Assembly (NCBI GenBank): GCA_017650905.1
Contig: JAGCDZ010000094.1
Span: forward strand, 1-35,845
Length of the DNA stretch: 35,845 nt
Direction of reading: 5' to 3'
Source: Prevotella sp.
Lineage (GTDB): Bacteria > Bacteroidota > Bacteroidia > Bacteroidales > Bacteroidaceae
The notes under the pieces are model-generated. The model searched no databases. It saw nothing but the letters and a program-made list of their open reading frames with translations, and was not told the origin of the DNA. This document shows positions 2,615-27,972 of the stretch, piece by piece; within the stretch, counting starts at the first letter, position 1, and each line of letters starts with the position of its first letter. The translations under genes were made by a program, and so were the position numbers.

Positions 2615-2630
2615 CCATTCTGGATTATAT

Positions 2631-2687
2631 AGTATCAGCATTGGCAAAGATTGTGCATCCTTCTTTGCCCGAAACCCTGTACCTTTG
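2631..2687 (+). promoter_or_regulatory. mgp promoter with candidate AraC operator
   Basis: The -7 element TACCTTTG is at 2680-2687. No TTTG lies at the expected -33 spacing, which suggests activator dependence. The sequence AGTATCAGCATTGG (2631-2644) starts 49 nt upstream of the -7 element. A near match starts 49 nt upstream of the susC -7 element. The ATG of mgp is at 2726. Confidence 0.65.
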
Positions 2688-2725
2688 CATCTGGATATAA
2701 ACACTTACTCAATTGTTATAATGCG

Positions 2726-3931
2726 ATGACAACATTTGAACAGAAAACAAAAGCTTTGTATCAACAGCATGAGGAATTGCTGACGCGTAAGAATGAACCT
2801 GTAACGGCGGGAAACAGCAGTCTTGGCACCTTCCGTTTTTCACAGAATGGCATCTATGAGAAGTATCGCTATCCTGTGCTGACGGCCGAGCATACGCCAT
2901 TGGAGTGGCGCTATGACTTTTCAGAACAGGACAATCCCTTTTTGATGCAGCGCATCATGATGAATGCTGTGTTGAATGCCGGCGCCATCAAATTTAACGG
3001 CCGCTATCTCGTGGTGTGCCGTGTAGAGGGTGCCGACCGCAAGAGTTTCTTCGCTGTGGCCGAATCGCCTAACGGCATCGACAACTTCCGTTTCTGGGAG
3101 GAGCCTGTCACCATGCCCGACGATGTAATTCCTGCCACGAATGTTTACGATATGCGAATCACCCAGCATGAAGACGGTTGGATCTATGGCGTGTTCTGTG
3201 CTGAGCGCCATGACGACTCACAGCCCGGGAATCTCTCTGCAGCGACGGCTACGGCCGGCATCGCCCGTACCAAGGACCTGAAGACCTGGGAACGTCTGCC
3301 CGACCTGAAGGCCAAGAGTCAGCAGCGTAACGTGGTGCTGCATCCGGAGTTCGTCGATGGGAAATACGCCTTCTATACCCGACCTCAGGACGGTTTCATC
3401 GATACTGGCTCGGGCGGCGGTATCGGTTGGGCTCTGGTCGATGATATCACCCATGCAGAGGTGAAGGATGAGAAGATTATCTATGAGCGTAAATACCACA
3501 CCATCACCGAGGTGAAGAACGGTGAGGGTCCGCATCCCATCAAGACTCCCATGGGCTGGCTGCATCTGGCACATGGTGTGCGCGGCACGGCCGATGGCCT
3601 GCGCTACGTGTTGTATATGTATATGACAGCACTTGACGACCCAACTTGCGTCATTGCCCGTCCTGGTGGTTACTTCCTCGTGCCGGAGTGCGACGAGTAT
3701 CTGGGCGACGTGATGAACGTGGCCTTCTCGAATGGATGGATCAAGGATGATGACGGGCGGGTGCTCATCTACTATGCTTCGGCCGATACCCGCCTGCATG
3801 TGGCTGTATCTACCGTCGACCGCCTCATTGACTACTGCATGAACACGCCCGAGGATGGACTGACCACCAGTGCCAGTGTGGAAACGATCAAGAAGCTGAT
3901 AGAAAAGAACAGGCAACTCGCCAATAAATGA
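2726..3931 (+). CDS. mgp: 4-O-beta-D-mannosyl-D-glucose phosphorylase (GH130)
   Basis: A 401-residue cytoplasmic phosphorylase that uses phosphate to split beta-1,4-mannosyl-glucose into alpha-mannose-1-phosphate and glucose. It closely resembles the Bacteroides fragilis enzyme as I recall it, through motifs such as [52 protein letters not shown] and [11 protein letters not shown]142 in NVYDMR aligns with the proton-relay Asp of that enzyme. There is no signal peptide. The ATG at 2726 gives the family length and lies downstream of the -7 element; an upstream TTG at 2651 would precede the promoter. The manA start lies 1 nt after the stop, so the two are translationally close. A related GH130 mannooligosaccharide phosphorylase is the main alternative, but the similarity is to the mannosylglucose-specific type. 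Confidence 0.93.
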
Positions 3932-3932
3932 T

Positions 3933-4907
3933 ATGAAACCCTACAAGTTTGAACCCTATCTCAAGACCACCATCTGGGGTGGCTATCAGATTGCTCCCTT
4001 CAAGGGCATCTATACGGCGCAGCCGAATATCGGCGAGAGTTGGGAAATCAGTGGTGTGCCAGGTCATGAGAGCATTGCCGTGGAGCGTGGGCTTGTCGAC
4101 GATGTTGACGTAGGCTTGAATCTTACCCAGCTCATCGACAAATACAAAGGACTGCTGATAGGTCAGAAGGTCTATAAGCGTTTTGGCAACAAGTTCCCGC
4201 TGCTGGTGAAGTTTATCGACTCTCGTCAGGACCTTTCCGTTCAGGTGCATCCCGACGACAAACTGGCGATGGAGCGGCACGGCTGTGCCGGCAAGACGGA
4301 GATGTGGTATGTCATCAAGAGCGATGTTGGCTCAAAAATCTATGCGGGACTGTCGAAGAGCATTACACCCGATGACTATGAGCAGCTGGCCTATACCGAA
4401 CCCGTCAATGGCCATTCGCCCATGCAGGACGTTCTGGCTACCCATGAGGCTCATGAGGGCGACCTCTACTTCCTTCCTGCAGGACGCCTGCATGCCATTG
4501 GCGCCGGTAACTTCCTGGCGGAGATCCAGCAGACGAGCGATATCACCTACCGTGTCTATGACTTCGGGCGCAAGGATGCGCACGGCAATCCGCGGGAGCT
4601 GCATGTGGAGCAGGCTCGCGATGCGATCGACTATCAGGTATGGCCGGAATATCGTACCTCCTATGACTCTACTAAGCCCACCAGTCAGCTGATCAACTGT
4701 CCCTATTTCGTGGTTCATCGCGTGGTTGTTCAGGTGGCTCAGCAGATAGACTTCCACTGCGACTCCTTTATCATCGTGATGTGTCTCTGGGGCGAAGCCA
4801 ATATCAATGGCATCCATATCCGGCAGGGCGAGACCATATTAGTCCCCGCCTGCGAGAATATCCTTTATATTTTCGGAAACGCCACCTTCCTGACGGCTAC
4901 AATTTAG
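3933..4907 (+). CDS. manA: mannose-6-phosphate isomerase, class I
   Basis: A 324-residue cupin-type isomerase interconverting mannose-6-phosphate and fructose-6-phosphate, feeding mannose from the GH130 reaction into glycolysis after a phosphomannomutase step not encoded here. The class I zinc ligands are visible: Q104 and H106 (LSVQVHPDD), E123 (KTEMWYV) and H187 (PAGRLHAIGAG). The short bacterial form lacks the insertion of the eukaryotic enzyme. It starts 1 nt after mgp and is the last plus-strand gene of the mannan locus. Its TAG (4905-4907) overlaps the TAA of the convergent GH26 gene, with no terminator between. Confidence 0.95.
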   Translation: MKPYKFEPYLKTTIWGGYQIAPFKGIYTAQPNIGESWEISGVPGHESIAVERGLVDDVDVGLNLTQLIDKYKGLLIGQKVYKRFGNKFPLLVKFIDSRQDLSVQVHPDDKLAMERHGCAGKTEMWYVIKSDVGSKIYAGLSKSITPDDYEQLAYTEPVNGHSPMQDVLATHEAHEGDLYFLPAGRLHAIGAGNFLAEIQQTSDITYRVYDFGRKDAHGNPRELHVEQARDAIDYQVWPEYRTSYDSTKPTSQLINCPYFVVHRVVVQVAQQIDFHCDSFIIVMCLWGEANINGIHIRQGETILVPACENILYIFGNATFLTATI

Positions 4908-6169
4908 TATTTTACCTGCGAACGGGTGATGACGATGTCGGCATTGGCTTTCTTCATGGCCGACGACCACCAGGCGTCGCTGACCATCGTACCCGACTTA
5001 TTGCCGGCATTGCCGTCATACCACACCATGAAGTGTCCCCACTTGGCACCGGCATTCCAGCATTCTACGATATCGCCCTGAGGCTTGCCCGTCTTGTCGT
5101 TGCCGTCCCAGCCACACTCGCCCAGCACCACCATCTTGTTGGGGTAGGTGGCTTGGATTTCCTTGAATTCCTGGGCATTCTGTGCGGCTGTGTAGCCGTA
5201 GAGGTCGCGGGCTATCATGTCGCAATAGTTGTCACCCGGATACCAGTAGGTGTCCTGGTTATAGCTGGCACTGTTGCCGTTGTAGTTTTGGGTGGTCCAG
5301 ATCCAGATGAGGTTGTTGACACCTTTCTGTTTGAAGTAGTCATACATGGCTATCCAAAGACGCTTGAACGTCTCCGCGCCGTCGTAGCCCCACCAGAACC
5401 ACGCCTTCGTCCAGTTGGCCTGTTGCTTTGCGGTGGCATTGCCGGCAGCCTCGTGGAAGGGACGCCAGGTAGCGGCGATACCGGCTTCCTGAAGTTTCAG
5501 GATGACGGCAATGACGCGGTCCATCTGGGCATAGAAATACTTGTTTTCCCAAGTACCGCTTACTAAGGCGTTCGAGGCCTTAAAGGTGGTTTCACCTGGG
5601 GAACAGGTCACGCCGCTGCCGTTGGTGCCGACAGTGGTGTCCTCGCTCTTCGGCACATTGAAATGCCACATCAGCTGGACGATGCCACCCGCATCCGCCC
5701 AATCTGTTACAGGTGTGATATTGGAGTAGTCAATCCAGCCGTTGCCGTCGGGCACCTGTATATGAATGAAGTCATAGCAGTTCATGGCAGGCCACTTGCC
5801 GGAGATATTCTTCTTGATGTTATTCGCGCACGTGTTGTTCCAGGCCACCTCGGCCATCACACTCGATATCACCTTCTTGCCATAGTTGTTGCGGAAGTAG
5901 CGGTAGAGTCGCTTGGCGGCCTCTGTCGTACCGGCCACAGGAGTGGTGGCGATGTTGGCGTTCTCGGTGTCGATGTCGATATTCGTGACCTGATAGGCTT
6001 GTCCTCCGATGGTGAGCGTGCCGTCAGTCTGATTGTACGTCATGGTTCCGGCAGTCGCGGCACTGATCTGCTTCGTGCTCCCATCGGCATTGGTCACACT
6101 GATGGTCTGGGACGTCATGCTGACCACCCAAAGCGCTGTAGTTATGAGGGAGATGAGTCTGTTCTTCAT
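4904..6169 (-). CDS. secreted GH26 endo-beta-1,4-mannanase
   Basis: A 421-residue enzyme expected to cut beta-1,4-mannan. An N-terminal signal peptide (about 1-21, MKNRLISLITTALWVVSM) lacks a lipobox Cys. Residues 22-77 form a short beta-rich module (NADGSTKQIS ... TLTIGGQAYQVTNIDI) resembling the neighbouring small protein. The GH26 barrel spans about 80-420, with general acid/base E240 in WRPFHE and nucleophile E351 in VLGECGWDG. Further family signatures are VMAEVAWNN and QLMWHFNVP. It is the last gene of the susCD operon, and its ATG overlaps the stop of the preceding gene by 4 nt (ATGA). Whether it acts at the surface or in the periplasm cannot be told from sequence; the absence of a lipobox favours the periplasm or T9SS-independent secretion. 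Confidence 0.93.
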   Translation of the reverse strand: MKNRLISLITTALWVVSMTSQTISVTNADGSTKQISAATAGTMTYNQTDGTLTIGGQAYQVTNIDIDTENANIATTPVAGTTEAAKRLYRYFRNNYGKKVISSVMAEVAWNNTCANNIKKNISGKWPAMNCYDFIHIQVPDGNGWIDYSNITPVTDWADAGGIVQLMWHFNVPKSEDTTVGTNGSGVTCSPGETTFKASNALVSGTWENKYFYAQMDRVIAVILKLQEAGIAATWRPFHEAAGNATAKQQANWTKAWFWWGYDGAETFKRLWIAMYDYFKQKGVNNLIWIWTTQNYNGNSASYNQDTYWYPGDNYCDMIARDLYGYTAAQNAQEFKEIQATYPNKMVVLGECGWDGNDKTGKPQGDIVECWNAGAKWGHFMVWYDGNAGNKSGTMVSDAWWSSAMKKANADIVITRSQVKY

Positions 6170-6567
6170 CTGACTTGCAGTTTTTGGGTTTTCGTGCCTT
6201 TCCTAACGAGATAGACGCCTTTCTTAAGCGGTGCGCTTGCAGGCAGTTTCTGGCCTTGGAGGGTAAAGACGGCATCGGCATCCTCGATACTGATTGATTC
6301 CTCGGTTTGGATGCTGCGGATACCCGTTGTCTCATCGTTGTTCGAGAAGTTCATCGAGGCGAGGTCGCTCAGGGCTATGGTCTTCGACTCGTCGGTATAG
6401 GCATTGGTGAGGGTCAGTTTATCGCTGCTGAAGGTCAGACTCAGTCCCACGGCCGTCAGCGAGGTCTTGGTGCCGTCGGTCTCAACGATGGTCAGATAAT
6501 AATAGTCTTCGGCATGGACTGTTGCCATGCCGAAGAGGACTATTATTAATAGGAGAACCTTTCTCAT
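6166..6567 (-). CDS. small secreted protein with a DG-beta module and T9SS-like C-terminal tail
   Basis: 133 residues with a signal peptide (1-19, ending TVHA). Residues 25-76 hold a beta-strand module (ETDGTKTSL, LSLTF, LTLTN, KTIALSDLASMNF) of a type frequent in Prevotella secreted proteins. The end (98-133, AVFTLQGQKL ... KKGVYLVRKG ... KLQVR) looks like a type IX secretion C-terminal signal or an Ig-like remnant. The gene is coupled by 4-nt ATGA overlaps to the gene before it and to GH26 after it. No enzyme motif is present. It might be an accessory subunit of the mannanase, or a separated N-terminal part of an ancestral fusion. Function unknown. Confidence 0.78.
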   Translation of the reverse strand: MRKVLLLIIVLFGMATVHAEDYYYLTIVETDGTKTSLTAVGLSLTFSSDKLTLTNAYTDESKTIALSDLASMNFSNNDETTGIRSIQTEESISIEDADAVFTLQGQKLPASAPLKKGVYLVRKGTKTQKLQVR

Positions 6568-8414
6568 TGAAGAACGATCTTCTTACAGATGATACCAGCA
6601 CCGCAAATGACCAGACCGCCACTGTTGATCAGCTGATCCATGTCAGCCTCAGTGAGGACCGTCTTGATACTTGTCTCAGAAGGATCGGGAGAGGCATTAC
6701 CATCATTGCCCCAACTCAGTGTGGAAGGCAGGGCAGCCCAACTGCCATTGCCGAAGCGGATGTTGATGTAGCCTACTGACGGGTCAACCTCGTAATAGAG
6801 CTTCAGGGTTGTGCCTGCAGAGACCTGACTCCAGTCATAGCCACCCCATGAGAGGTCGCCCAGACCTGCTGCCCAGCTTCCTAAGGCAAAGTTGCCGCTC
6901 CAGATGACATCCTCGAGAACCGAGAGCGTGATCTTCGTGATGGTGAACCATGCACCGCAGATGACGAGACCGCCATTGGCTACCATCTCATCGATCATGG
7001 CCTGTGTGAGTGTCACCGTGAACTTGGTATCCTCTTCTGCCAATGGATTCACATCGGCCGTACCAGGTAATGCTGCCCAAGATCCGTTACCGACGCGGAT
7101 CTGCGACCAGCCCTCTACCCAGTTTGGCTTGAGATAGATGGTCAGCACCTGTCCGGGCTTAACAGTCGACCAGTCATAGCCGCCCCAAGCCAGTTCCTGC
7201 ATGCCAGCATTCCAGCTTCCAATCTCGAAGTTACCAGCCCAGATAACGGTCTCAGGCGCCTCACTGTACATCATGAACTTCTGGGTGACTGTGATGAAGC
7301 TGTTCTGGTAGAGTTCGAGGTTACCGTCTGACATGCCCTCGGGAACGGTGAAAGTCAGCGTATTGCCAGAAATGGTGTACTCATCGTCGGCCAGGATGCC
7401 ATAGCCCGGAAGGGTGATGGTTTCGATGCGGTCGAAGTTCTCACCGGTAATCACAATCACATCGCCAATCTTGACATCCTTCTCCTTTGAGACACCGGTG
7501 ATGGCAATCGTAGGCACGCTGATTTCCTTTGTCGTGATAGCATCGCCGGAATAGAGTAACAGCGAAACCGATCCGGACTTGGTCTCTGCGGGAACGGTAG
7601 CCGTTATTGTGGTGTGATCGTCAGAAACGGTAAAGTCGGCTGTCACACCACCTGGGAAGATGACGCTCTCAACCGTGTGCAGGTTGACACCGACAATCTG
7701 AATCTGCTGTCCGAAGTCGGTCTTCTCTGTTATGCTACTTACAGAAGCCGTGACCACTTCCAATGGTGTCTTGAATTCTTCTTCCCAGTCTGCGCCATCA
7801 TTGAATGTCAGGGTTCCGGACTCGGCTGCCAGAGGAACAATCACGCGTATTTCACGTCGTGACACATAAGTGAAGTCCTCGGCCAAGACAGGCGCTCCTG
7901 ATACACCAGAGGGGAATATCACTTCTGCGATATTATAGACATAGTCACCCTTGATCGATATTTCGTCACCTGCGTTCAGACCGGTGGTGGGGGATACTGA
8001 TGTCACTGTAATAGGCTCCTGGAAAGTGAGCGTGCCTACTGAGACAATTGTGTCGCTACCTGCTATGAGGCGGATCTTTCCAGGAACAGACTCATCAGGG
8101 ATGTTGACGTAGATATTCTCATTGTCAACCGAATTGAAAGCAGCTTTCTCAACTTCTGCACCTGTGATGTTGATGATTTTTCCTGCTCTTTCCAAGGTGC
8201 CTCCAGGGAATACCACCTTGTCGACACTGTTCAGATTGGTACCCGTAATGCGGATTTCCTGAGCACGTGTGGTGGGCGACGGTCCAAATGCAAGCAGGTT
8301 GACACCCGACTTGTTGTATGGATTGGTATCGTAGTCATCCTCGCTACAGGCTGTCAGGGATAGCCCGACGAGGGCTACCACTAACAGGGCGAATACATTA
8401 TATATCTTTTTCAT
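6564..8414 (-). CDS. IPT/TIG-repeat surface glycan-binding lipoprotein with two tandem C-terminal carbohydrate-binding-like modules
   Basis: 616 residues. The lipoprotein signal ends LSLTAC-SEDD (Cys at 23, acidic +2 region as in surface-exposed Bacteroidetes lipoproteins). About four IPT/TIG Ig-like domains follow (about 40-385), each with patterns such as SISPTTGLNAGDEISIKG and IVGVNLHTVESVIFPGG. Two homologous modules of about 113 residues close the protein (390-502 and 503-616). Both contain WGGYDWS, [RI]-x-GNGSWAALP, an LT-x-x-x-[MI]D helix and GGLVICGA. The exposed Trp/Tyr-rich pattern fits glycan binding. It follows the other binding lipoprotein by 15 nt and overlaps the next gene by 4 nt. 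Assignment as a SusE/F-position surface binding protein is by context; the ligand, probably mannan, is inferred. Confidence 0.85.
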   Translation of the reverse strand: MKKIYNVFALLVVALVGLSLTACSEDDYDTNPYNKSGVNLLAFGPSPTTRAQEIRITGTNLNSVDKVVFPGGTLERAGKIINITGAEVEKAAFNSVDNENIYVNIPDESVPGKIRLIAGSDTIVSVGTLTFQEPITVTSVSPTTGLNAGDEISIKGDYVYNIAEVIFPSGVSGAPVLAEDFTYVSRREIRVIVPLAAESGTLTFNDGADWEEEFKTPLEVVTASVSSITEKTDFGQQIQIVGVNLHTVESVIFPGGVTADFTVSDDHTTITATVPAETKSGSVSLLLYSGDAITTKEISVPTIAITGVSKEKDVKIGDVIVITGENFDRIETITLPGYGILADDEYTISGNTLTFTVPEGMSDGNLELYQNSFITVTQKFMMYSEAPETVIWAGNFEIGSWNAGMQELAWGGYDWSTVKPGQVLTIYLKPNWVEGWSQIRVGNGSWAALPGTADVNPLAEEDTKFTVTLTQAMIDEMVANGGLVICGAWFTITKITLSVLEDVIWSGNFALGSWAAGLGDLSWGGYDWSQVSAGTTLKLYYEVDPSVGYINIRFGNGSWAALPSTLSWGNDGNASPDPSETSIKTVLTEADMDQLINSGGLVICGAGIICKKIVLQ

Positions 8415-8429
8415 ACCTTTAATACTTTA

Positions 8430-9839
8430 TTATTTGTTAGGAACAATACGGATGTTGTCGATCTTGATGATGGGCGTACAGTCGGTTCCTTCGACACCAC
8501 CACCATAGAGGGCCATCCAGAGACTGGCGAAGGAGTCCTTACTCATTGGATTGCCACAGAGCGTACCGTCGTAGCTGTAGACAAACGAGGCTGCCAGGGG
8601 GAGAGAAACGGTAATCCATTCATCACCAGTATCATAACTACCAGTGGCCGTCCAAGGACGATACAGGGCGCGTGGCACTGACTTGTCGTTCAGATATTCA
8701 TTGCTCTGTACGTGAATGGCATTGCCGTATGCATCTACACCTCCAGCTCCGTATGTGGTCTTGTCAGTACCGGCAAATACAATCTGCATGGCACCACCCG
8801 TCCAAGGATTGCTGGAAGGGATGAACATTTCGAACTTCATGGTCATATTCGACCAGTCTGACATGTCTACCAGGTCGTAGAGACGTGGATAAACCTTGAA
8901 TGTCTCGGGATCTTCCCAGTTGCCAGGCCAGTAGGCAAACGAGTGCCAGCTTTCGTCGGGCCAACCGTTGTCTGCAGTACCGGGACAATTTGAGGTTCCG
9001 CTACCAAACTGCCAGTAGTTGCCGGAAATACCTGTCCCGTCGTCCACAGTCATGGTATGACCATTCCAGGCATGCATGTCAAGCACCACATCCGAAATGC
9101 CGTTAGGCGTATCGAAGTCGAACAGCAGACCGCGATTGTCCTTATACCAGAATGAACTCTTCGAGGTGCCATAGACAGAGGTGGCTACGATAGGACCAGA
9201 AACGGCACCATCAGGAATAATAATGTCGACAGACGTGAAATCTTGGGCAATATCGATCACTTTTGCAGGTAATAATGACCCGTCAGCCGCTGGGAAAGAA
9301 ATACTCAGAGGTGTTCCAGGATCATCAATGAAATAATTGCCTTTAAGAGTCTGTCTGGAACCTGCTGCGGCATACTCATTGGCGATGGAGTTGACGATAG
9401 GTGCTGAAATAACGACCTTGAAGTCATAAGCGACCGTGTCTCTACTTGTTGTTATGAAGTAAATCTTATCGGTCACCTCTCCTGGCACCTTACCAGGTAT
9501 GGTTACAAAAAGGCTATTATCTGTCAATGTACTTTGATTGAGTGATGCTCTAAGGTCATTGAACCAGATTTCATATACACTGCGCAAATTGTCGCCGATG
9601 ATAGCCAGTGTGCTACCAGGGCTTGCGCTGGTAACCAATTGACCATCAGTATACTGCGTGTCAGGTTCGTCATCCCAATTGTGTATTTCAGACGACATAC
9701 AGCGAATATACTTGATAGTGGGCTTTCCATCTGTTGGCTCAAACTTGTCGGGCTCGTCCTTACAAGAGGTCAACGCCATGGTGCTGATGGCAGCAACTGC
9801 CAGCAACAATCCTTTACTATATTGTTTAATCCTATTCAT
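8430..9839 (-). CDS. surface glycan-binding lipoprotein (SGBP-B type)
   Basis: 469 residues, lipoprotein signal ending MALTSC-KDEPD (Cys 26). The first ~240 residues are Ig/IPT-like (GSTLAIIGDNLRSVYEIWF, GSRQTLKGNYF). The second half (about 245-465), starting LLFDFDTPNG and rich in Trp (WHSFAYWPGNWEDPETF, WTGGAMQIVF, RPWTATGSY), ends in IIKIDNIRIVPNK. This architecture matches surface glycan-binding proteins encoded after susD in Bacteroidetes glycan loci, with the C-terminal domain doing the binding. It lies between SusD (19 nt) and the IPT lipoprotein (15 nt). The ligand is inferred as beta-mannan from GH26 and GH130. Confidence 0.87.
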   Translation of the reverse strand: MNRIKQYSKGLLLAVAAISTMALTSCKDEPDKFEPTDGKPTIKYIRCMSSEIHNWDDEPDTQYTDGQLVTSASPGSTLAIIGDNLRSVYEIWFNDLRASLNQSTLTDNSLFVTIPGKVPGEVTDKIYFITTSRDTVAYDFKVVISAPIVNSIANEYAAAGSRQTLKGNYFIDDPGTPLSISFPAADGSLLPAKVIDIAQDFTSVDIIIPDGAVSGPIVATSVYGTSKSSFWYKDNRGLLFDFDTPNGISDVVLDMHAWNGHTMTVDDGTGISGNYWQFGSGTSNCPGTADNGWPDESWHSFAYWPGNWEDPETFKVYPRLYDLVDMSDWSNMTMKFEMFIPSSNPWTGGAMQIVFAGTDKTTYGAGGVDAYGNAIHVQSNEYLNDKSVPRALYRPWTATGSYDTGDEWITVSLPLAASFVYSYDGTLCGNPMSKDSFASLWMALYGGGVEGTDCTPIIKIDNIRIVPNK

Positions 9840-9858
9840 ATCTTAAACCTTTTATTAT

Positions 9859-11652
9859 TTAGTAACTGTAAGTAGCACGAATATCAACATGCTGAGCTTC
9901 TGCACTTGCTGCGAGATTGGGGTTGAACACCACATCGCGTTCCGTCATCGGAATGGCAAAATACTTCTTGCCGGAGTCGGGATCGTCGCGCATGAGCTGC
10001 TCTACAAGAGGTGCTGTCGTATTCTCCGGATACTTGGCAGTGGCAGGAACAACCCAGTCGCCGGTCTTGTAATAATTCTCGTAGATTTCATTGAGTGTAC
10101 CGTTTCCGATCACGTCACGCTTCTGGGCCTTCAGTTCGTTGATACAGAACTGCGGATTATAATAGCTTATACGTACAAAGTCGTACCATCTGTCACCTTC
10201 AAAGGCCAGCTCTAAACGACGCTCTTTCCAAACATCGTCAAAGGATACGCGGGTCAATGCGGTCAGGCCAGCTCTTTGACGAACGGCATTGATAGCATTG
10301 AGTGCCTCTGAATCGGTGGTAGAGGCGGCCTGAGGATTGCCAGGACTGCTGAGAATGACCTTTGCCTCGGCAAGAATCAGCATGACGTCGGCGACACGCA
10401 ACAGCGGCGTTGCCAAGCTGTTGGCCATACGGGCTGCGGGATAACCAATACCTGCTGTATGGTCTGCATTGTTGCCATAGATGTGCTTAACAGGATAAGC
10501 ACCCGTAGGACAAACGAGATGCGGCTTGTCGTTTTCAATTTCAACAGAGGGGTTGTATTCCTGATCATAAACAAAGCGAATGAAGTCGAAACCACCCTTG
10601 TCCGTCCAGAAGTAATCATACTTATAACCCGGAAGCATCATGGTTGCCTTCAGGCGGGCGTCGCGATGGTTAAGCCAGATGTCAGGCGTCTGTTCCAAGA
10701 CCTTGATGCCAAAAGCCTCCTGTAAGTCCGTGCTCATGCCTTTCCATTGTCCCCAACAGTCATCATCGCCCATGCCTTTCGGTGCATAGTCGTTCTGCAT
10801 AAAGCTTTGATCAGTCCATTGGTTGTTGTTGGCATTCCAACGCCAGGAAATCAGACACTCAGGATTGATATTGTTGGCCAGACGGAACACATCTGCATAA
10901 TTCTCCATCAGCGAGTGACTGCCATGTCCAAGACACAAGCGCGCATATTCAACGGCTTTGTTGAGGTCGTCGGTGCTGATAGAACCGCTGATACCTGCCT
11001 TGGTCAGATAAACCTTGGCCAAGAGACCTTCTGCGGCAGCCTTGTCAATGCGGCCAGCCTGCATGGGGGTCTCAGGTAGGATTTCGATGGCCTTTTCCAA
11101 TGTCATGATGATATATTCCATGACATCAGCCTTCTTCACTTTGACGGCCGTGTTATAGCTGCCGGATTCAAGTTCTGCGGTGTTGTCGTGGATAATGGGA
11201 ATATCACCAAAGGTACGTTCGAGGAAGAAATATGCCAGAGCCTTCCATACCAGGCATTCGCCCATGGTCTGGTTTTTGCCGGCTTCTGAAGCACCTCCCT
11301 GTTTGATATAGTTGTAAACGGTGTTACAGTGAGCTACTGCCGACCACAAAGAGTTCGACATGGCGCCAAGTTCGGAGTCAGATCCATTCAGCGAGAAGTC
11401 CAAGTATGGGCTTGTACCCGGATAGTAGTTTCCGGACAAGACCTCACCAACATTGATAAAGTTTCGTGTGAAGTCACTCCATGGAGAACTGTACAAGTAG
11501 GATGTTCCAGAAAGACATTCTGTATCAGAGCCATAGTAATTGTCGGCATTATAGTTGTCGATTGTCGGCTTGTCCAGGAAGTCCTCACAGGCAGTGAGAC
11601 CAAAGCCAATGAACGCAACAAGTGCAACGGTCTTTATATTCATGAATTTCAT
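9859..11652 (-). CDS. SusD/RagB-family nutrient-uptake lipoprotein
   Basis: 597 residues. Lipoprotein signal ending GFGLTAC-EDFLDKP (Cys 22), the classic SusD start. Helical TPR-like pairs follow (ECLVWKALAYFFLERTFGDIPII, GRIDKAAAEGLLAKVYL), and the RagB/SusD C-terminal section reads LRVADVMLILAEAKV, LNAINAVRQRAGL, VWKERRLELAFEGDRWYDFVR. It forms the lid of the SusC channel and binds glycan at the cell surface. It starts 13 nt after the susC stop in the same operon, which is the standard pairing. Confidence 0.97.
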   Translation of the reverse strand: MKFMNIKTVALVAFIGFGLTACEDFLDKPTIDNYNADNYYGSDTECLSGTSYLYSSPWSDFTRNFINVGEVLSGNYYPGTSPYLDFSLNGSDSELGAMSNSLWSAVAHCNTVYNYIKQGGASEAGKNQTMGECLVWKALAYFFLERTFGDIPIIHDNTAELESGSYNTAVKVKKADVMEYIIMTLEKAIEILPETPMQAGRIDKAAAEGLLAKVYLTKAGISGSISTDDLNKAVEYARLCLGHGSHSLMENYADVFRLANNINPECLISWRWNANNNQWTDQSFMQNDYAPKGMGDDDCWGQWKGMSTDLQEAFGIKVLEQTPDIWLNHRDARLKATMMLPGYKYDYFWTDKGGFDFIRFVYDQEYNPSVEIENDKPHLVCPTGAYPVKHIYGNNADHTAGIGYPAARMANSLATPLLRVADVMLILAEAKVILSSPGNPQAASTTDSEALNAINAVRQRAGLTALTRVSFDDVWKERRLELAFEGDRWYDFVRISYYNPQFCINELKAQKRDVIGNGTLNEIYENYYKTGDWVVPATAKYPENTTAPLVEQLMRDDPDSGKKYFAIPMTERDVVFNPNLAASAEAQHVDIRATYSY

Positions 11653-11665
11653 AATGCTACAGTGT

Positions 11666-14600
11666 TTAGAATGTTACGTTAATACCAAATGAATAGGTAG
11701 TCGGGGAGGGATAACGACCATTGTCGAGTCCGGCAACGAAGCTGGACTGGGTGCTGGTACCTACCTCAGGATCGTATCCGTCATAGCCGGTAATAGTTAA
11801 CAGGTTCTGGATGTTGACATTTACACGGAGCGTCTCCAACGAGAGTCTGCGAACCATCTTCTTGGGGAATGTATAACCTAAAGAAATGTTCTTAAGACGG
11901 ATATAGCTTGCATCTTCGATATAACGGTCGCTCCAGCGGTCGTTGTCATTGGGGTCGCCCATTGACATACGAGGCAGAGATGCACCGGGATTAGCTATAC
12001 GTACATTATTAATATCATCGTACCAATTCCAAATCAACTGGCCGTCACCACGGTCTACACCTGCAGAGTAGTCCTTGTTAGGATCGATGGGCTCCAGACG
12101 GGTGGCACCAAGAACATCATCGAGCTGGTTGATCCAGGTGTTATTCATGTGGGTGAGCTTGTACTTGTTGTAGTTACCGACCTTGTTACCATAAGAACCG
12201 TTGATGAAGATATTCAGGTCGAAGTTGTTCCAGCGGAAAGTGTTGGTCCAACCGAAGGTGAATTTGGGTAAAGGCGAACCGATATCAGTACGGTCGTATG
12301 CATCAATCTTTCCATCGGGCACACCGTCAGGACCGCTCAGGTCCTTGTACTTGATATCACCAACCCATACGGTGCTGTTCTTGGCATAGACGCCGTCGAC
12401 GCCAGGATGAACTGGTGTGGGGGAATTCTCAATATCCTCTTTGGAAGTATAGTAGCCATCACAGACATAACCATAGAAACTGAATAATGAGCCACCTACT
12501 TCTGTCTGCGACACTTGAGGCTCCTGGTCACCCCACTGGCCCCAGCCTTTCAAGGTCGCATTACCGGTTCCATCGTTCAAAGCAACCAGTTTGTTCTTGT
12601 TAAATGAGATCTGGAACTCTGAATCCCATTCAAACTTACCAACGATAGGATGGGTGTTCAGTGTTATCTCAAGACCAGTGTTGCGGATGGTGCCATAGTT
12701 GCCTGAAGGTGCTTCGAGGGCAGAAGAACTATTGCCGCTGGTACCCATATATGCTGGGAGCTGAAGACCCATCAGCATGTCTTTCGACTCCTTGCGATAC
12801 CAGTCGACGGTCAGATTGACGCGGTTGTTAAAGACGCCAAGGTCAAGTCCTACATTAAACTGCTCCTGGCTTTCCCACTGAATGGCCGTGTTGGCAATGT
12901 TTGCAGGTCTGTTACCAGAACCAAGTGCTGAGGTCTGTGTCTTCAAAGCCACGCCCCACTTATAGGCACCGATACTGGAGTTACCAGTTTGTCCCCATCC
13001 GAGTCGTAGCTTACCATTGCTGAGCCAAGTCAGGTCTTTCATAAAGACTTCATTATTGAAACGCCAGCTGGCAGCAAAGGAATGGAATCCTGCCCAACGT
13101 TTGTTCGGACCGAAATTTGAGCTGCCATCGTAGCGGTATGTATAGGTGGCATTGTAACGGTCGTTGTAGCTATAAGTCCATCGTGTGAAGAATGAAGCCA
13201 TGGAAGCTTCGCCGAAACCGGAATCAACAGTGGGGTTTCCCGTTCCTAATTTGACATTGTGAACCTTATCGTTGGGAAGACCGGTATTGGAGGCACTTAA
13301 ATAGTCCCATGACGACTCCCAGGCTTCCTGACCCACCATACCCGTCACATGATGCTTGCCGACAAAGGTGTGAGTCCATGTTACATAGTTCTTAATCTGC
13401 CAGAACTTATTAGAGTTCTTCTGAGTGGAAGCAGTGTTATTGTTCTGATGATAGGTTGCCAGGCTAATAATAGGACGATAACGGTCTGCCTTGCTCCATC
13501 CAAGGTCGAAACCCAATTCTGTGTGCCACGTCAGATCTTTATAGAACTTGACATCGAAGAAGATGTTACCATTCAACTTCTGACGGTTCAGTTTGTTTTC
13601 GTTCAATAAAGCCAATGCAATGGGGTTCGGGCTTGAAGAACCTTCATAAGAACTGGAGGCGTAGTTGCCGTCCATATCGTAAATAGGCAGGTTTGGCGTA
13701 GTGGTCAGAGAGTAGTTGATGATGCCTTCTTCACCATCGGCCAGCTTCAGATCATCATTAGAATCAGAGAAAGCAACATTAATACCCATCTTCAGCCAGG
13801 ACTTCAGATCTGCATCAACATTGGCACGAGCCGACAGACGATTGAATTCCGATCCGATAATGGTTCCCTCCTGCTTCATATACGAACCACTGACGTAATA
13901 GCGAACCTTGTCAGTACCGCCTTGTGCACTCACTTGATGCTGATGCATCAAGGCTGTCTGAAAAACGGCGTCTTGCCAGTTCGTACCCTTGCCAAGCAGA
14001 CTCTTGTCGAGGAATATCGGGTTTGCCGTGGCTTCACCAATCTCCACATAGGCATTATAATAGTCGGCATATTCGCGCAGATCAAGGATGTCGAGTCGCT
14101 TGGTCTGGCGATTTAATGCAATCGTTCCACTATAAGAGAACTTGGCCTCGCCGGCTTTACCATGCTTAGTCGTAATCAGCACGACACCGTTGGCGCCTTG
14201 GGCACCGTAGATAGCGGTGGCAGAGGCATCCTTCAGAATCTCCATGCTGACAATGTCCTGTGGGTCAATGGTAGATAATGGGGAGATGGTTGATACCGAA
14301 CCATTACCAAGGGCGTCACCCAGTCCGTAGTCATAGCCTGTCAGACCTTGGCTTTGGACAATCACACCATCGATGACGTACAGAGGTTCGGCATTGGCAT
14401 TGATAGTGGCTGTACCACGAACGCGGATAGATGAGCCGGAGCCGGGAGCACCAGAGGTGGATACGGCACTGACACCAGCAGCATGGCCTTGCAGGGCTTG
14501 GTCGAGTGAGGTAATGAGAGAACCTTTAATGGCACTCTCACCAACTGTTGCAGAAGCACCCGAGATGTCGCTCTTCTTCATCGTACCGTAACCGACGACT

Positions 14601-14959
14601 ACAACCTCGTCTAATACTTTCTTGTCCTCCTCGAGGGTGACGTTGTACTTGCTCTGGGCAGCGGTGATCTTAATCTCCTTAGTCAGGTAACCAATGTAAG
14701 AGATAACCAGGGTCTGACCCGGGCTGGCGTTCAGTGAGAAGTTACCGTCGAAGTCGGTGGCGACACCATTCGACGTACCTTTCACGACAACACTGGCTCC
14801 GATAACGGGGCCCATAGCGTCGACCACAGTTCCTGTGATCTTCTTTGCCTGCTGAACTTCCTGCGGGGAAGCAGCGGCATAGGCATCAGGTGAGTAACAC
14901 AATCCCAATAGGGAGAATGCACCCACCAACAGCGCTGTTTTCCTAAAAGTTTTGTTCAT
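11666..14959 (-). CDS. SusC/RagA-family TonB-linked outer-membrane transporter
   Basis: 1097 residues, the usual length. Signal peptide about 1-29 (DAYAAA). A carboxypeptidase-regulatory-like domain spans about 41-112 (ITGTVVDAMGPVIGASVVVKG), followed by the SusC signature DEVVVVGYGT (117-126). The plug domain (about 127-245) has ISGASATVGESAIKG and SIRVRGTATINANAEPLYVIDG, and the beta-barrel ends in the expected terminal aromatic (SFGINVTF). It imports oligosaccharides across the outer membrane with SusD as lid. It is the first gene of a six-gene minus-strand operon ending in GH26, which points to manno-oligosaccharides as cargo (inference). No N-terminal anti-sigma-interaction domain is evident, consistent with AraC-type rather than sigma/anti-sigma control. 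Confidence 0.97.
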   Translation of the reverse strand: MNKTFRKTALLVGAFSLLGLCYSPDAYAAASPQEVQQAKKITGTVVDAMGPVIGASVVVKGTSNGVATDFDGNFSLNASPGQTLVISYIGYLTKEIKITAAQSKYNVTLEEDKKVLDEVVVVGYGTMKKSDISGASATVGESAIKGSLITSLDQALQGHAAGVSAVSTSGAPGSGSSIRVRGTATINANAEPLYVIDGVIVQSQGLTGYDYGLGDALGNGSVSTISPLSTIDPQDIVSMEILKDASATAIYGAQGANGVVLITTKHGKAGEAKFSYSGTIALNRQTKRLDILDLREYADYYNAYVEIGEATANPIFLDKSLLGKGTNWQDAVFQTALMHQHQVSAQGGTDKVRYYVSGSYMKQEGTIIGSEFNRLSARANVDADLKSWLKMGINVAFSDSNDDLKLADGEEGIINYSLTTTPNLPIYDMDGNYASSSYEGSSSPNPIALALLNENKLNRQKLNGNIFFDVKFYKDLTWHTELGFDLGWSKADRYRPIISLATYHQNNNTASTQKNSNKFWQIKNYVTWTHTFVGKHHVTGMVGQEAWESSWDYLSASNTGLPNDKVHNVKLGTGNPTVDSGFGEASMASFFTRWTYSYNDRYNATYTYRYDGSSNFGPNKRWAGFHSFAASWRFNNEVFMKDLTWLSNGKLRLGWGQTGNSSIGAYKWGVALKTQTSALGSGNRPANIANTAIQWESQEQFNVGLDLGVFNNRVNLTVDWYRKESKDMLMGLQLPAYMGTSGNSSSALEAPSGNYGTIRNTGLEITLNTHPIVGKFEWDSEFQISFNKNKLVALNDGTGNATLKGWGQWGDQEPQVSQTEVGGSLFSFYGYVCDGYYTSKEDIENSPTPVHPGVDGVYAKNSTVWVGDIKYKDLSGPDGVPDGKIDAYDRTDIGSPLPKFTFGWTNTFRWNNFDLNIFINGSYGNKVGNYNKYKLTHMNNTWINQLDDVLGATRLEPIDPNKDYSAGVDRGDGQLIWNWYDDINNVRIANPGASLPRMSMGDPNDNDRWSDRYIEDASYIRLKNISLGYTFPKKMVRRLSLETLRVNVNIQNLLTITGYDGYDPEVGTSTQSSFVAGLDNGRYPSPTTYSFGINVTF

Positions 14960-15009
14960 ACTTGAGTTATTAATGTTAGAATTGGAGTCCTATAGTTAGA
15001 AAATCGTTG

Positions 15010-15066
15010 CAAAGGTATATTGGTTCATTGAATTGTTTGCAACTTTATTTGACTATTGTTGATACT
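15010..15066 (-). promoter_or_regulatory. susC operon promoter with candidate AraC operator
   Basis: On the minus strand, TACCTTTG (15017-15010) is the -7 element; the nearest upstream TTG is 22 nt away, a weak -33. The sequence AGTATCAACAATAG begins at 15066, exactly 49 nt before the -7 element, matching the mgp promoter in sequence (AGTATCARCAWTRG) and spacing. The leader to the ATG at 14959 is about 45 nt. Confidence 0.65.
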
Positions 15067-15100
15067 TTTTTGCTATTCCCTGTTAAAATAGCGAATAAGT

Positions 15101-15136
15101 GTAAATAGTACACGGGCGAAACCTGGTACTATTTAC
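15101..15136. repeat. perfect 11-bp inverted repeat upstream of the susC promoter
   Basis: GTAAATAGTAC (15101-15111) and its exact reverse complement GTACTATTTAC (15126-15136) are separated by 14 nt. It lies between the stop of the aldolase gene and the susC promoter. No T-run follows on either strand. It may be an operator for a dimeric regulator or an RNA stem at the 3' end of the aldolase transcript. Confidence 0.75.
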
Positions 15137-23967: not shown

Positions 23968-26900
23968 TTACTTGATAATCACCTTGCGAACGTTGTTGCC
24001 CTGACGGATGATGTAGACACCAGCCGGAAGATCCAGATTGGGTGCACCCTTGCCCTTGGCAACGCTGGTACCATTCAGTCGGTTGATGGTCCATTGGTCG
24101 TCAGCAATGGCATTGACAATGCGGATGCCCGTCGGGTTGAAGACAAGGGCCTCAGGAGCCGACTTCTGGGCATTGCCTACATTGTCCACGGCATAGGCGA
24201 TGATGCTATAGTTCGCGTTGGTCTGATCCATCTCAAAGCTGAGACTCGGCTCAATATTATTGCCCAGGAACACATAGTCCTCGCCATCCTTGGAAATATA
24301 GAACTGATAGTGGCTGACACCTGACTCGCTGTCAATACCCTCGCAGGTCACTAAGAACTTTCCGTCATCTTGTTTGGCGACACTCTTCATCTTCGTCGTG
24401 GGCGCTACGAGATCCAGTGTGTTCACATACTCGTTGGTCTCAATCACCTCGTTGTAGTCGAACCTGATAGAAGCCTTGTTCTTAATCTGTGTACCATTCT
24501 TCAGACCTGGCTTCAGGTCAACGCTGAAGGTCACGTAGCCTTCGCCCTCAGGAGCATTCACGTTGGGTGGCAGTTCGATGCCCTCAATGTCCCAGGTAAG
24601 TTTGTTGCCCTCTCGGTTCATCTTCCAGTTGTACCCAACGCCCTCATGGCTGGTAGAGCCAAAGCGGACAGTGTTGAGATCAAAGATGTTCTCGTCGAGT
24701 TCGTCGCTAATGCGGATGCGATAGGCAGGAGCCGTGGCATCCTTCTTGTTCTCAAAGAGAATCTGGTAGTCCATGGTCTTTGCTTCGCTGATATAATTCT
24801 CGTCACCATAGCCAATTGGACCTACCATTTCATTGGGGTCAAACGATCTTACAACACCATTGATACCTTGTTTTGCATCAAGCAGTTTTTCGTTATATTT
24901 TCTCTCCCATTCTTTGTAATTTGCATCTGTGTCCTTTGTGGTAAACCAGAGCCAGCGACGGACGATGGCACCACTGAATGCCTTAGTTGTTTCCAGCAGT
25001 TCTCCGGCAAAGTTAATGAGTCCACCGCCTGGAACTGTTTCAAGCCACTTGGTGGCTACTGTCTTGACTGCACGCCTTGCCACAACAATAGTTTCGCCAG
25101 TCTTGGTCTTTTCTTCGACTAAGCCCCAGTCTACCTTTTTATTCACCTTTTCGCGATAGTATGCCAACTCTTTTTCGTCTAGGTCGATATGGTCATGAAT
25201 GACGTCTGTCATAAACTCTGTCACTTTATCGCCTGCATAATCGAGAGCCACAAGTCCTGCTATGATGAGACAAGTCGTTCCTGAGATGACTATACGATGC
25301 GACTGAGATTTTTTAGAAGAAGTGTCAATCATAAATTCTCGAGCATCCTTCATAACCAGTCCTTCGGCCATAATATTGAACGAGTAGGTCTCAAATGGAG
25401 CCATGCTTGGTACGACGAATACCATGGCAGGATCACCATCGTAACTGATGCTGTCCATTGGCAGTTCTTCTACACCGTTTTTACCAGGTAATTTGCATCC
25501 CAGCAATTTGATATCGTCTGTGGCATGAACCAGCAGGAAGAACTTTGTGCTTGGGCGACTGTCAATATTTTCAATCTTCACAGTGTATTCTGTAGGAACA
25601 CCAAGACGAACTTTGTCTCTTCCAACGAATGTAATGCGAATCTTTGAGTCTGCTGCGCGCTCAATGGTACCGTAGGTCAGGGTGTAGCCGCCATGACCTC
25701 CATCCCGGCAGAGATGTGCATAATAGGTGGCACCTTCTTCTATTTTATCTATATTGAATGTATAGGGTTCATTGATATACCACTTATTGGCAACAACTTT
25801 TGACTGATCACCTTTTATTTGTACAATATCAACCCACTTCAACTTTAGTGTTGATGTGGTGTCGGGCGATACGGTAATGTTCATCATTGTGGTGGCATTT
25901 TGGGTGTCCAGCTTAATCCAGTCTTCGTTGTCGCGCTTATCATTGGCGTCGAGATAGCCCAAATGACCAGAAATAGAAGCATTGTTCTCCAGCAAATCGG
26001 TTGCTTCTGCCTGCTCGTTGTTAGGCTCTGTGTCGGTTGGGAAGTTATAAGGCGTGAAGATATACTTCAGTCTGTAACCGCCAAAGCCTTTATCACGATT
26101 CAAATGCAGATAATAGGTTCCAACACCCGCGTCCTCAATGGTCAGCGTATCGTTGAGCATATACCACTTACTTTGACGGGAATAATAAGTCTCTTTATTC
26201 TGATCATAACGTTTGAAGTCCAGCCATTTCATCTGCAATCCGTATGTCGGCTCACAATTCACCACCAATTGCACACGGCCGTCCTGTGGTACTTGAATCT
26301 TGTAACAATCATCATTGTCGCGATAGTCGTTGGCATCAAGATAACCGATATGTCCTTGCACGGTCTGTCCGTTGACAATCTCTGTGCCTTCTCCATCCTT
26401 ATCGTTAGACTCGGCATCGTTAGCATAGCGGTTAGGCGTGAAGATATACTGTAGGGTGTATCCACCATGACCTTTGTTGCGATTCAGATGCAGGTAGTAG
26501 GTGCCGACACCAGCATCATCTATGGTCAATGTATCATTGCTCATATACCATTTGTTGGCACGGACATAATAACTCGTATTCGGATCCAGTCGTTTGACAT
26601 CCAGCCATTTCATTTCCAGGTCATAAGTCTTGTCGCAATTCACGATTAACTGCACTCGTCCGTCCTGAGGCACTTGAATCTTATAGCAATCGTCATTGTC
26701 GCGGTAGTTGTTGGCATCAAGGTAGCCAATATGTCCCTGCACGGTCTGCCCATTGGCAATCTCAGTGCCTTCTCCGTCCTTATCGTTAGACTCGGCATCG
26801 TTAGCATAGCGGTTAGGCGTGAAGATATACTGTAGGGTGTATCCACCATGACCTTTGTTGCGATTCAAATGCAGGTAGTAGGTGCCGACACCAGCATCAT

Positions 26901-27972
26901 CTATGGTCAATGTATCATTGCTCATATACCATTTGTTGGCACGGGCATAATAACTCGTATTCGGATCCAGTCGTTTGACATCTAGCCATTTCATTTCCAG
27001 GTCATAGGTCTTTTCGCAATTCACGATTAACTGCACTCGTCCGTCCTGAGGCACTTGAATCTTATAGCAATCGTCATTGTCGCGGTAATCGTTGGCATCA
27101 AGGTAGCCAATATGTCCCTGTACGGTTTGTCCGATAGCAATCTCGTCACCCTGCCCGTCCTTATCATTGGGCTCGACATCGTTGGTGTAATTGTTGGGCG
27201 TAAAAACATATCTTATAGAGTAGCCGCCATGACCTTTGTCGCGATTCAGACGCAGGTAATAAGTTCCCACACCAGCGTCGTCAATGGTCAATGTGTCGTT
27301 GCTCATATACCACTTCGTTTTACGGGAATAATAAGTTTTATTGTTTTGATCATAACGTGTGACGTCCAGCCATTTCATTTGCAGGTCATAGGTTTTTTCG
27401 CAATTCACGATTAACTGAACATGACCGTCCTGCGGCACTTGAATCTTATAGCAATCGTTGTTATCGCGGTAGTCGTTGGCATTAAGGTAGCCTATTCGAC
27501 CCTGTACACTTTGTCCAACTGCAATTTCAGAGCCCTGCCCCTCTTCGTCATTCTTTTCTGCATCGTTCGCATAAGCACAGGCTGTAAATTGGTAATTCAG
27601 AGAATAAGATCCGGCACCACCGTCACGCTGAATTTTAAGATAATAGGTGCCCGAGCCGGCATCCTCGACAATAAGACTCTCGTTGTTCTTCATATACCAC
27701 TTGCAGGAGCGAGAATAATCGGCATTGTTTGCAACCCATTTAAAGTCAAGCCACTTGATGCTGAGATCGCCACTTAGCGTTAAAGTTATCGCGACTCGCC
27801 CTTCTTCAGGCACTTCAATCTTAAACCAGGCAGATTCGTTGTTCTTGTCGAGCGTACCGTTACCTGATCCGCCTTGTTTAATGAGCGTGGCCGTCTGCCA
27901 CGAATTTCCTTGTGCCAGCATCCCTATTGGCAACGCCAGCAGCAACAATAATAGTTGTAGTTTTCTTTTCAT
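23968..27972 (-). CDS. 1334-residue secreted protein with six PPC-like repeats, a helical segment and a T9SS-like tail
   Basis: Signal peptide 1-20 (ending GMLAQ). Residues 22-765 hold six tandem domains of about 127 residues, each built around EIANGQTVQGHIGYLDANDYRDNDDCYKIQVPQ-like text (first part) and NDTLTIDDAGVGTYYLHLNR (last part), resembling pre-peptidase C-terminal (PPC) beta-sandwiches. A beta-region (770-885) is followed by an unusual segment (about 890-1045) with a hydrophobic helix (TTCLIIAGLVALDY) and charged helices. Residues about 1044-1185 (RSFDPNEMVGP ... FDYNEVIETNEYVNTLD) match the DUF7619-type domain of Bacteroidetes surface proteins. An Ig-like region and a tail (LPAGVYIIRQGNNVRKVIIK) like a T9SS signal end the protein. 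No catalytic motif is seen. Surface adhesin or binding scaffold is a guess. Confidence 0.85.
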   Translation of the reverse strand: MKRKLQLLLLLLALPIGMLAQGNSWQTATLIKQGGSGNGTLDKNNESAWFKIEVPEEGRVAITLTLSGDLSIKWLDFKWVANNADYSRSCKWYMKNNESLIVEDAGSGTYYLKIQRDGGAGSYSLNYQFTACAYANDAEKNDEEGQGSEIAVGQSVQGRIGYLNANDYRDNNDCYKIQVPQDGHVQLIVNCEKTYDLQMKWLDVTRYDQNNKTYYSRKTKWYMSNDTLTIDDAGVGTYYLRLNRDKGHGGYSIRYVFTPNNYTNDVEPNDKDGQGDEIAIGQTVQGHIGYLDANDYRDNDDCYKIQVPQDGRVQLIVNCEKTYDLEMKWLDVKRLDPNTSYYARANKWYMSNDTLTIDDAGVGTYYLHLNRNKGHGGYTLQYIFTPNRYANDAESNDKDGEGTEIANGQTVQGHIGYLDANNYRDNDDCYKIQVPQDGRVQLIVNCDKTYDLEMKWLDVKRLDPNTSYYVRANKWYMSNDTLTIDDAGVGTYYLHLNRNKGHGGYTLQYIFTPNRYANDAESNDKDGEGTEIVNGQTVQGHIGYLDANDYRDNDDCYKIQVPQDGRVQLVVNCEPTYGLQMKWLDFKRYDQNKETYYSRQSKWYMLNDTLTIEDAGVGTYYLHLNRDKGFGGYRLKYIFTPYNFPTDTEPNNEQAEATDLLENNASISGHLGYLDANDKRDNEDWIKLDTQNATTMMNITVSPDTTSTLKLKWVDIVQIKGDQSKVVANKWYINEPYTFNIDKIEEGATYYAHLCRDGGHGGYTLTYGTIERAADSKIRITFVGRDKVRLGVPTEYTVKIENIDSRPSTKFFLLVHATDDIKLLGCKLPGKNGVEELPMDSISYDGDPAMVFVVPSMAPFETYSFNIMAEGLVMKDAREFMIDTSSKKSQSHRIVISGTTCLIIAGLVALDYAGDKVTEFMTDVIHDHIDLDEKELAYYREKVNKKVDWGLVEEKTKTGETIVVARRAVKTVATKWLETVPGGGLINFAGELLETTKAFSGAIVRRWLWFTTKDTDANYKEWERKYNEKLLDAKQGINGVVRSFDPNEMVGPIGYGDENYISEAKTMDYQILFENKKDATAPAYRIRISDELDENIFDLNTVRFGSTSHEGVGYNWKMNREGNKLTWDIEGIELPPNVNAPEGEGYVTFSVDLKPGLKNGTQIKNKASIRFDYNEVIETNEYVNTLDLVAPTTKMKSVAKQDDGKFLVTCEGIDSESGVSHYQFYISKDGEDYVFLGNNIEPSLSFEMDQTNANYSIIAYAVDNVGNAQKSAPEALVFNPTGIRIVNAIADDQWTINRLNGTSVAKGKGAPNLDLPAGVYIIRQGNNVRKVIIK
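25678..27909 (-). repeat. six in-frame tandem repeats of about 381 bp
   Basis: The DNA for residues 22-765 is a tandem array with a period of about 381 bp (127 codons); for example, GACTCGGCATCGTTAGC begins at 26408 and again at 26789. The third and fourth units are nearly identical at the DNA level (about 26408-27100), including synonymous positions, while the outer units have diverged strongly. This points to recent duplication or gene conversion in the centre. Confidence 0.9.

Follow-up and report, generated by a model that had tools for sequence, protein, structure and literature searches.

The window analyzed here is a stretch of 35,845 nucleotides from a rumen-type Prevotella sp. and corresponds to contig C93 of a draft genome of 2.9 Mb in 110 contigs, with a completeness of about 72%. 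It harbors a polysaccharide utilization locus (PUL) for plant mannan, in which a gene for a stand-alone AraC-family regulator is followed by a short operon encoding a GH130 family protein and a phosphomannose isomerase (GH130-manA), while a SusC-type transporter gene on the opposite strand heads a predicted operon reaching to a GH26 gene (susC…GH26, Table 1). The assignment of the latter genes to one putative transcript is based on strand and spacing. Our analysis concerns two short motifs, one upstream of each gene set, which the original prediction had proposed as operators of the AraC-family protein encoded at 1730–2614.

Both motifs were found where they had been placed, AGTATCAGCATTGG at position 2631 (plus strand) and AGTATCAACAATAG at position 15066 (minus strand), and 11 of the 14 bases are identical between them. 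With the -7 element TACCTTTG starting at 2680 (plus) and 15017 (minus), both motif-to-(-7) distances amount to exactly 49 nt. In the sigma-ABfr promoter, TAnnTTTG has been described as the -7 box and TTTG as the -33 box (PMC7366714). The claim that both promoters lack a good -33 box likewise held, as TTTG is absent 22–26 nt before either -7 start; the best candidate in the susC promoter is GTTG, 26 nt before the -7 box, and the GH130 promoter contains no 3-of-4 match to TTTG at 22–26 nt, with TTTG found 16 nt before the -7 box. Taken alone, the 14-mer is weak evidence, with 32 matches in the window at up to three mismatches versus 16 expected, and it is the spacing and the recurrence elsewhere that lift the case above chance. 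An exact relative of the 14-mer in the source genome (C81:2892) was rejected, as it lies within a coding frame. The spaced combination, AGTRTCA 48–50 nt before TAnnTTTG, occurs five times in the source genome (reversed pattern: none); its three sites outside the window were discarded because of background scores on the operator matrix, two of them lying in open frames of more than 100 codons and the third in none.

A refined pattern yielded 72 sites in 200 genomes of the genus, compared with two for the reversed pattern. From the collection used for the logo and matrix, 13 sites were dropped at our discretion because the gene behind them was short, absent or doubtful, because they fell into a reading frame or because of a contig end; at least two of the 13 (L214 and L217) show a good-looking repeat. 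Four sites covered by a reading frame were retained (L226, L230, L266, L271); of the 59 retained sites, four with a spacing other than 49 nt were excluded, leaving 55. Their consensus reads CAAAAAAGTRTCA at -6 to +6 and YAAAAWARTAT at +15 to +25, where the search pattern had fixed the AGTRTCA core, YAANA and the -7 box, and had left free the A-tract before the core and columns 21–27. The core recurs at +21 with 4.73 of 7 matches versus a background of about 2.2. The operator is hence a direct repeat whose two halves are offset by 21 bp, or two helix turns. Its distal half-site, CAAAAAAGTATCA, is strong and its proximal one, CAAAATARTAT..A, weaker; measured to the -7 box, their cores begin at 49 and 28 nt. 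The sites, to which the protein would bind, show the tandem arrangement of half-sites some two turns apart that is sought in operators of the AraC/XylS family, with greater regularity in other genomes than in the window. The reading of the motif as an operator element is supported, with the refinement that the 14-mer represents only the distal half of a tandem operator and that the regulon is wider in relatives. The 55 sites are not a few near-copies, as just 2 of 1,485 segment pairs exceed 90% identity and the genes form 36 clusters at 75% identity. Between the segments, identity has a median of 0.59 (bases upstream: 0.30), a value raised by the columns that the pattern fixed.

Table 1 Features of the operators, promoters and genes of the mannan locus.
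Feature	Position	Strand	Basis or note
AraC-family regulator, stand-alone, 294 aa	1730..2614	+	Pfam HTH_18 3.1e-23, residues 207-285, C-terminal
Distal half-site, GH130 operator, core AGTATCA at 2631	2625..2637	+	Sequence, matrix
Proximal half-site, GH130 operator, degenerate AAAGATTGTGCAT, at place of -33 box	2646..2658	+	Sequence, logo
-7 element TACCTTTG of GH130-manA promoter	2680..2687	+	Sequence
GH130 family protein (mannoside phosphorylase type), first gene of short operon	2726..3931	+	Pfam Glyco_hydro_130 5.2e-23
Type I phosphomannose isomerase (manA-like)	3933..4907	+	PMI_typeI_cat 2.3e-8; TIGR00218 just under cut-off
Remainder of predicted susC operon	4904..11652	-	SusD to GH26
GH26	4904-6169	-	Predicted susC operon
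Protein without Pfam or NCBIfam match	6166-6567	-	Predicted susC operon
Protein without Pfam or NCBIfam match	6564-8414	-	Predicted susC operon
SGBP-B-like protein	8430-9839	-	Predicted susC operon
SusD	9859-11652	-	Predicted susC operon
SusC-type TonB-dependent transporter, first gene of predicted mannan PUL transcript	11666..14959	-	TIGR04056 7e-275
-7 element TACCTTTG of susC promoter	15010..15017	-	Sequence
Proximal half-site, susC operator, CAAATAAAGTTGC	15039..15051	-	Sequence, logo
Distal half-site, susC operator, core AGTATCA from 15066	15060..15072	-	Sequence, matrix

For comparison with orthologous loci, 80 loci around homologues of the AraC gene were retrieved, and susC orthologues were taken from the genomes of 40 of them. 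AraC relatives with 97–98% identity belong to Prevotella metagenome-assembled genomes, e.g. from water-buffalo omasum (L039) and rumen (L041). Among 509 upstream regions from the 80 loci and the window, AGTATCA was located 28 nt before TAnnTTTG seven times and 49 nt before it six times, two peaks 21 bp apart, while every other distance occurred at most once; for two scrambled strings and one scrambled reverse, the same regions gave no such peak. The original prediction hinged on conservation of the motif at the 49-nt spacing in orthologous loci, and such conservation was observed for both promoters. Out of 17 genes for close SusC relatives, one with 67 bases before susC near a contig end (L119) was excluded, and AGTRTCA stands exactly 49 nt before the -7 box in 12 of the 16 judged (SusC identity 60–99.8%). 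All five GH130 orthologues located directly behind an AraC homologue carry the motif 49 nt before TACCTTTG, as AGTATCA in L039–L042 (91–97% identical) and as TGTGTCA in L024 (83% identical, AraC 70% identical). In five further loci with a GH130 gene at another place (L054, L056, L073, L104, L105), no operator match was found right before that gene; in L054 and L056 it follows a gene bearing the operator, which encodes GH36 in L054 and a protein of likewise 728 aa, outside the Pfam scan, in L056.

A matrix comprising operator and -7 box, trained on the 55 sites, none of which stems from the window, ranked the susC promoter first (43.9) and the GH130 promoter second (30.8) on both window strands, with a third-placed score of 0.1 and a best score of 10.9 among 60 random sequences of the same dinucleotide make-up. 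Because the 55 sites include promoters of close SusC orthologues, the matrix was retrained on 36 sites, restricted to those whose genes are less than 50% identical to any window protein compared, which gave 42.7 for susC, 29.3 for GH130, 4.0 for the third position and 9.6 for the best random sequence. As core and spacing are common to the training search, the operator was also rescored without its core, and the susC operator then ranked second of 71,620 positions with either matrix. In the 80 AraC loci (1.39 Mb; threshold 15, penalty of 2 bits per base off 49), 53 matrix matches were obtained and none in the reversed sequences, 51 of them at exactly 49 nt. At least one match was present in 34 loci, including ten from Bacteroides (L103, L106, L107, L109, L111–L114, L116, L118). 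None of the 53 matches in these loci points at the promoter of the AraC gene itself, and two face away from it at up to 132 bp from the gene start; since no match points at it, the regulator gene is probably expressed constitutively or controlled otherwise. A second GH26/SusC cluster of the source genome, on contig C78 (L306, L298), showed no composite operator in the stretches scanned and probably lies outside the regulon.

The protein itself, read from the ATG at 1730 within a longer open frame (1646–2614), carries the C-terminal double helix-turn-helix typical of the AraC/XylS family, and its sequence matches in the PDB include AraC chain 2k9s at residues 185–285. No domain was detected in residues 1–200 by the Pfam scan, and with 294 aa and helix-turn-helix domains only in that scan the protein is not a hybrid two-component system (HTCS). 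Across the 80 homologues the mean identity is 71% in the DNA-binding domain versus 66% in the rest, and 63% versus 55% across 13 Bacteroides-type homologues. This stronger conservation fits a shared operator but is common among such proteins.

An AraC homologue was found in 99 of the 200 genus genomes, the source genome included. Sites of the refined pattern occurred in 46 of the 99 genomes with a homologue versus 10 of the 101 without (p 5.9e-9), and of 61 sites in the former group 21 are no more than 25 kb away from the AraC gene, versus an expectation of about one. As the refined pattern had been designed after viewing sites near AraC genes, a loose pattern (core, 48–50 nt, -7 box) served as the less biased test of the link; it yielded 266 matches versus 87 for the reversed pattern, with 179 in genomes carrying the homologue and 87 in the others (p 8e-7). 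The operator reading as a whole is supported by sites that track the AraC gene both by presence and by distance.

A different explanation would be that the AraC gene is merely a neighbor of the sites and not their regulator. Predicted HTCS motifs of Bacteroides are direct repeats with an average 21-bp distance as well (PMC3878776), the β-mannan PUL of B. ovatus uses an HTCS (PMC5217682), and 11 of the 72 sites occur in genomes without a detected AraC homologue. In contrast, no HTCS is present among the 20 window proteins scanned, with no unscanned frame above 400 aa and HTCS genes elsewhere in the genomes outside this search, the presence and position of the sites follow this AraC gene, and 22 of the 53 matrix matches lie directly behind it. 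We consider this explanation improbable. The second AraC-family protein of the window (29359–30492) was rejected as the regulator, as no homologue at E 1e-15 was found in the 80 loci.

Comparison with 156 control promoters of the same loci, selected to lack the core, revealed TTTG at the -33 place in 58 of them, in contrast to 1 of the 55 operator promoters (p 2e-8), so that the proximal half-site covers a degenerate -33 place in the manner of class II type activator sites. Should the motif be a general Prevotella promoter feature, such as an upstream A-tract or a -33 variant, one could point to the -7 box and to a T-run 14–16 nt before it, both of which are general, the latter being shared by the control promoters. 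However, these control promoters lack the columns of the proximal half-site and often carry TTTG at -33 instead, the 22 other SusC-matching stretches of the source genome score as background, and most of the named genes following the sites relate to mannan, which leaves a general feature very improbable. The T-run, situated between proximal half-site and -7 box, was discarded as an operator element, as control promoters have it too. A chance match of two short strings, suggested by the frequency of the 14-mer with three mismatches in the window, is hardly credible in view of orthologue conservation at the same spacing, pattern counts of 72 versus 2 and the out-of-sample matrix ranks.

We therefore regard it as very likely that the stand-alone AraC-family protein encoded at 1730–2614 has its operators in the two motifs and would switch on GH130-manA and susC…GH26 together. 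In the mechanism we propose, an AraC-type dimer would bind across both half-sites on one face of the helix, presumably in response to a mannan-derived sugar, with the proximal subunit occupying the place of the missing -33 box, as in class II activation, a mechanism known from E. coli AraC and its relatives. The dimer would then recruit RNA polymerase to the TAnnTTTG -7 box, and both gene sets would be activated together although their transcripts lie more than 12 kb apart. One AraC-type protein thus probably switches on both mannan gene sets, and the operator motif recurs next to the same regulator gene in related Prevotella and Bacteroides.

Several observations weigh against this operator reading. 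The evidence is sequence-based throughout and stems mostly from draft genomes. Since the AGTRTCA core, the 49-nt spacing and the -7 box were the starting point for both pattern and matrix, independent evidence comes only from the remaining columns, the link to the AraC gene, the target genes and the absent -33 box. The window sites themselves are not matched by the refined pattern (source genome: 0), and in the scoring without the core the GH130 operator ranked only 93rd (55-site matrix) or 133rd (36-site matrix) of the 71,620 positions, which marks its proximal half as weak, yet this half is kept among its orthologues. The core is missing upstream of susC in four of the 16 orthologues (L122, L127, L128, L134), all from genomes with the AraC gene and with A-tracts kept at the same places before the -7 box; here, the operator has perhaps been changed or lost. 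No matrix match was found in 46 of the 80 AraC loci, some of them on short contigs, and 53 of the 99 genomes with the homologue lack a site of the refined pattern. Among the 11 sites in genomes without it, some of which are incomplete, three precede susC genes (L225, L236, L270), one lies at a contig end (L224), one shows a good-looking repeat before an unclear frame (L214) and six have no convincing gene behind them. Within the source genome, 23 stretches match SusC; scanned with flanks, that of the window scores 43.9 and the other 22 at most 9.4, which favors the operator reading, but several of these 22 belong to a single gene or end close to a contig end, so that not every promoter was covered in this genome, which is about 72% complete. 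Finally, many SusC targets elsewhere are just 28–39% identical to the window SusC, and these genes may partly be under other AraC-type or HTCS regulators.

Analysis of the genes behind the 72 genus sites revealed 40 that match SusC (28–97% identity), two GH26, one GH130, one ManA and one weak match to the 616-aa window protein (L265), while 27 match no window protein. A Pfam scan of ten genes, mostly from these 27 and including L265, identified two AXE1 acetyl esterases, GH36, GH27, one weak DUF and five genes without a family. Likewise, ten genes without a window match behind the 53 matrix matches yielded GH36, GH59, AXE1 (two), GH2 and GH5, while four had no family above its cut-off. Judged by their annotation, most named targets fit the deacetylation, debranching, cutting and import of galactomannan, GH59 and GH2 being less specific. 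The gene directly behind AraC varies from locus to locus (GH130, manA, GH36, GH26, AXE1), and the operator stays while these genes change. Predicted proteins of about 320–550 aa with signal-like starts, each with its own operator, were observed in L216, L219, L221, L235, L246 and L269, as well as in L237, L265 and L272; Pfam matches were absent or weak for L219, L221, L235, L237, L265 and L272. In genome G080, one such protein is encoded 1.3 kb ahead of a SusC gene that has its own operator. These proteins are candidates for mannan-binding surface proteins. Two divergent SusC genes, G040:C5:76677 (L276) and G040:C5:76773 (L277), are 33% and 63% identical to the window SusC and each have an operator, which suggests a second mannan transporter under the same control.

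Further observations concern the window itself. The GH26 and phosphomannose isomerase genes are convergent with a 4-base overlap (4904–4907), so that the two predicted co-regulated transcripts run into each other, and the two proteins encoded at 6166–6567 and 6564–8414 are also present in L040, L041 and L058. A perfect 11-bp inverted repeat, GTAAATAGTAC/GTACTATTTAC, with a 14-nt loop (15101–15136, minus strand) lies between a pyridoxal phosphate (PLP)-enzyme gene and the susC operator and may be either the terminator of the upstream gene or another control site. A 1334-aa protein with DUF7619 and PPC domains (23968–27972, minus strand) is by annotation unconnected to the mannan genes.

E. coli AraC binds araI1-araI2 as an activator dimer; its two direct half-sites are spaced by 21 bp, and the proximal one adjoins or overlaps the -35 region. 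The operator described here resembles this arrangement in its period and in the proximal half-site at the upstream promoter box, while sequence, sigma factor and effector differ. Within Bacteroides, direct repeats with an average 21-bp distance were predicted for 16 HTCS regulators by Ravcheev et al. 2013, including HTCS_Man of B. thetaiotaomicron for α-mannan, with 16-bp sites separated by a 5-bp spacer (PMC3878776). HTCS_Man shares with our system the 21-bp-period direct repeat upstream of mannan-related genes and the AraC-type DNA-binding domain, but it is a hybrid two-component system, whereas a 294-aa stand-alone protein is found here beside genes seemingly for β-mannan. In the monosaccharide table of that paper, RhaR is the only AraC-family entry, and ManR is given as a GntR protein. 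The β-mannan PUL of B. ovatus, the named regulator of which is an HTCS (bacova_02097) that binds manno-oligosaccharides (PMC5217682, PMC5094572), likewise places GH26, GH130 and SusC/D-like genes under mannan control, and GH36 occurs in both that PUL and the regulon proposed here. A Muricauda β-mannan PUL with GH26 and GH130 holds an AraC-type factor (FG28_RS02325) within it, but in addition an HTCS, and the text of PMC9860051 considered here gives no operator for it. For XylRA of Vibrio β-1,3-xylan loci, genome comparison revealed AT-rich direct repeats ahead of several promoters within one utilization locus, and binding was demonstrated by gel shift (PMC12125979); this gammaproteobacterial regulator has an AraC-type DNA-binding domain as well, but differs in its LacI-type ligand domain and its xylose effector. 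The sections considered of PMC10766802, PMC13357471, PMC11107044, PMC12125979 and PMC11253607 describe no such operator for Bacteroidota mannan genes, and in a literature search that covered neither subscription journals nor supplements no operator of a stand-alone AraC regulator of β-mannan genes stood out. Tandem 21-bp operators, already predicted for Bacteroides HTCS, would extend to a stand-alone AraC-family activator, as the sites collected here support.

These results yield a concrete predicted operator of fixed geometry, together with a regulator and regulon, for β-mannan use in common rumen and gut bacteria. The search pattern also flags candidate mannan genes at a distance from the regulator, among them genes for secreted proteins that lack a Pfam family. 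With some reservation, we lean towards the view that one stand-alone AraC-family activator and one operator design govern β-mannan use across Prevotella and Bacteroides, where genes and operons would have been reshuffled and the operator kept 49/28 nt before the -7 box in place of the sigma-ABfr -33 box. This leads to the hypothesis that AraC-type activators replace the -33 box in Bacteroidota; if general, such activators, HTCS included, would make promoters conditional through an operator in place of -33.

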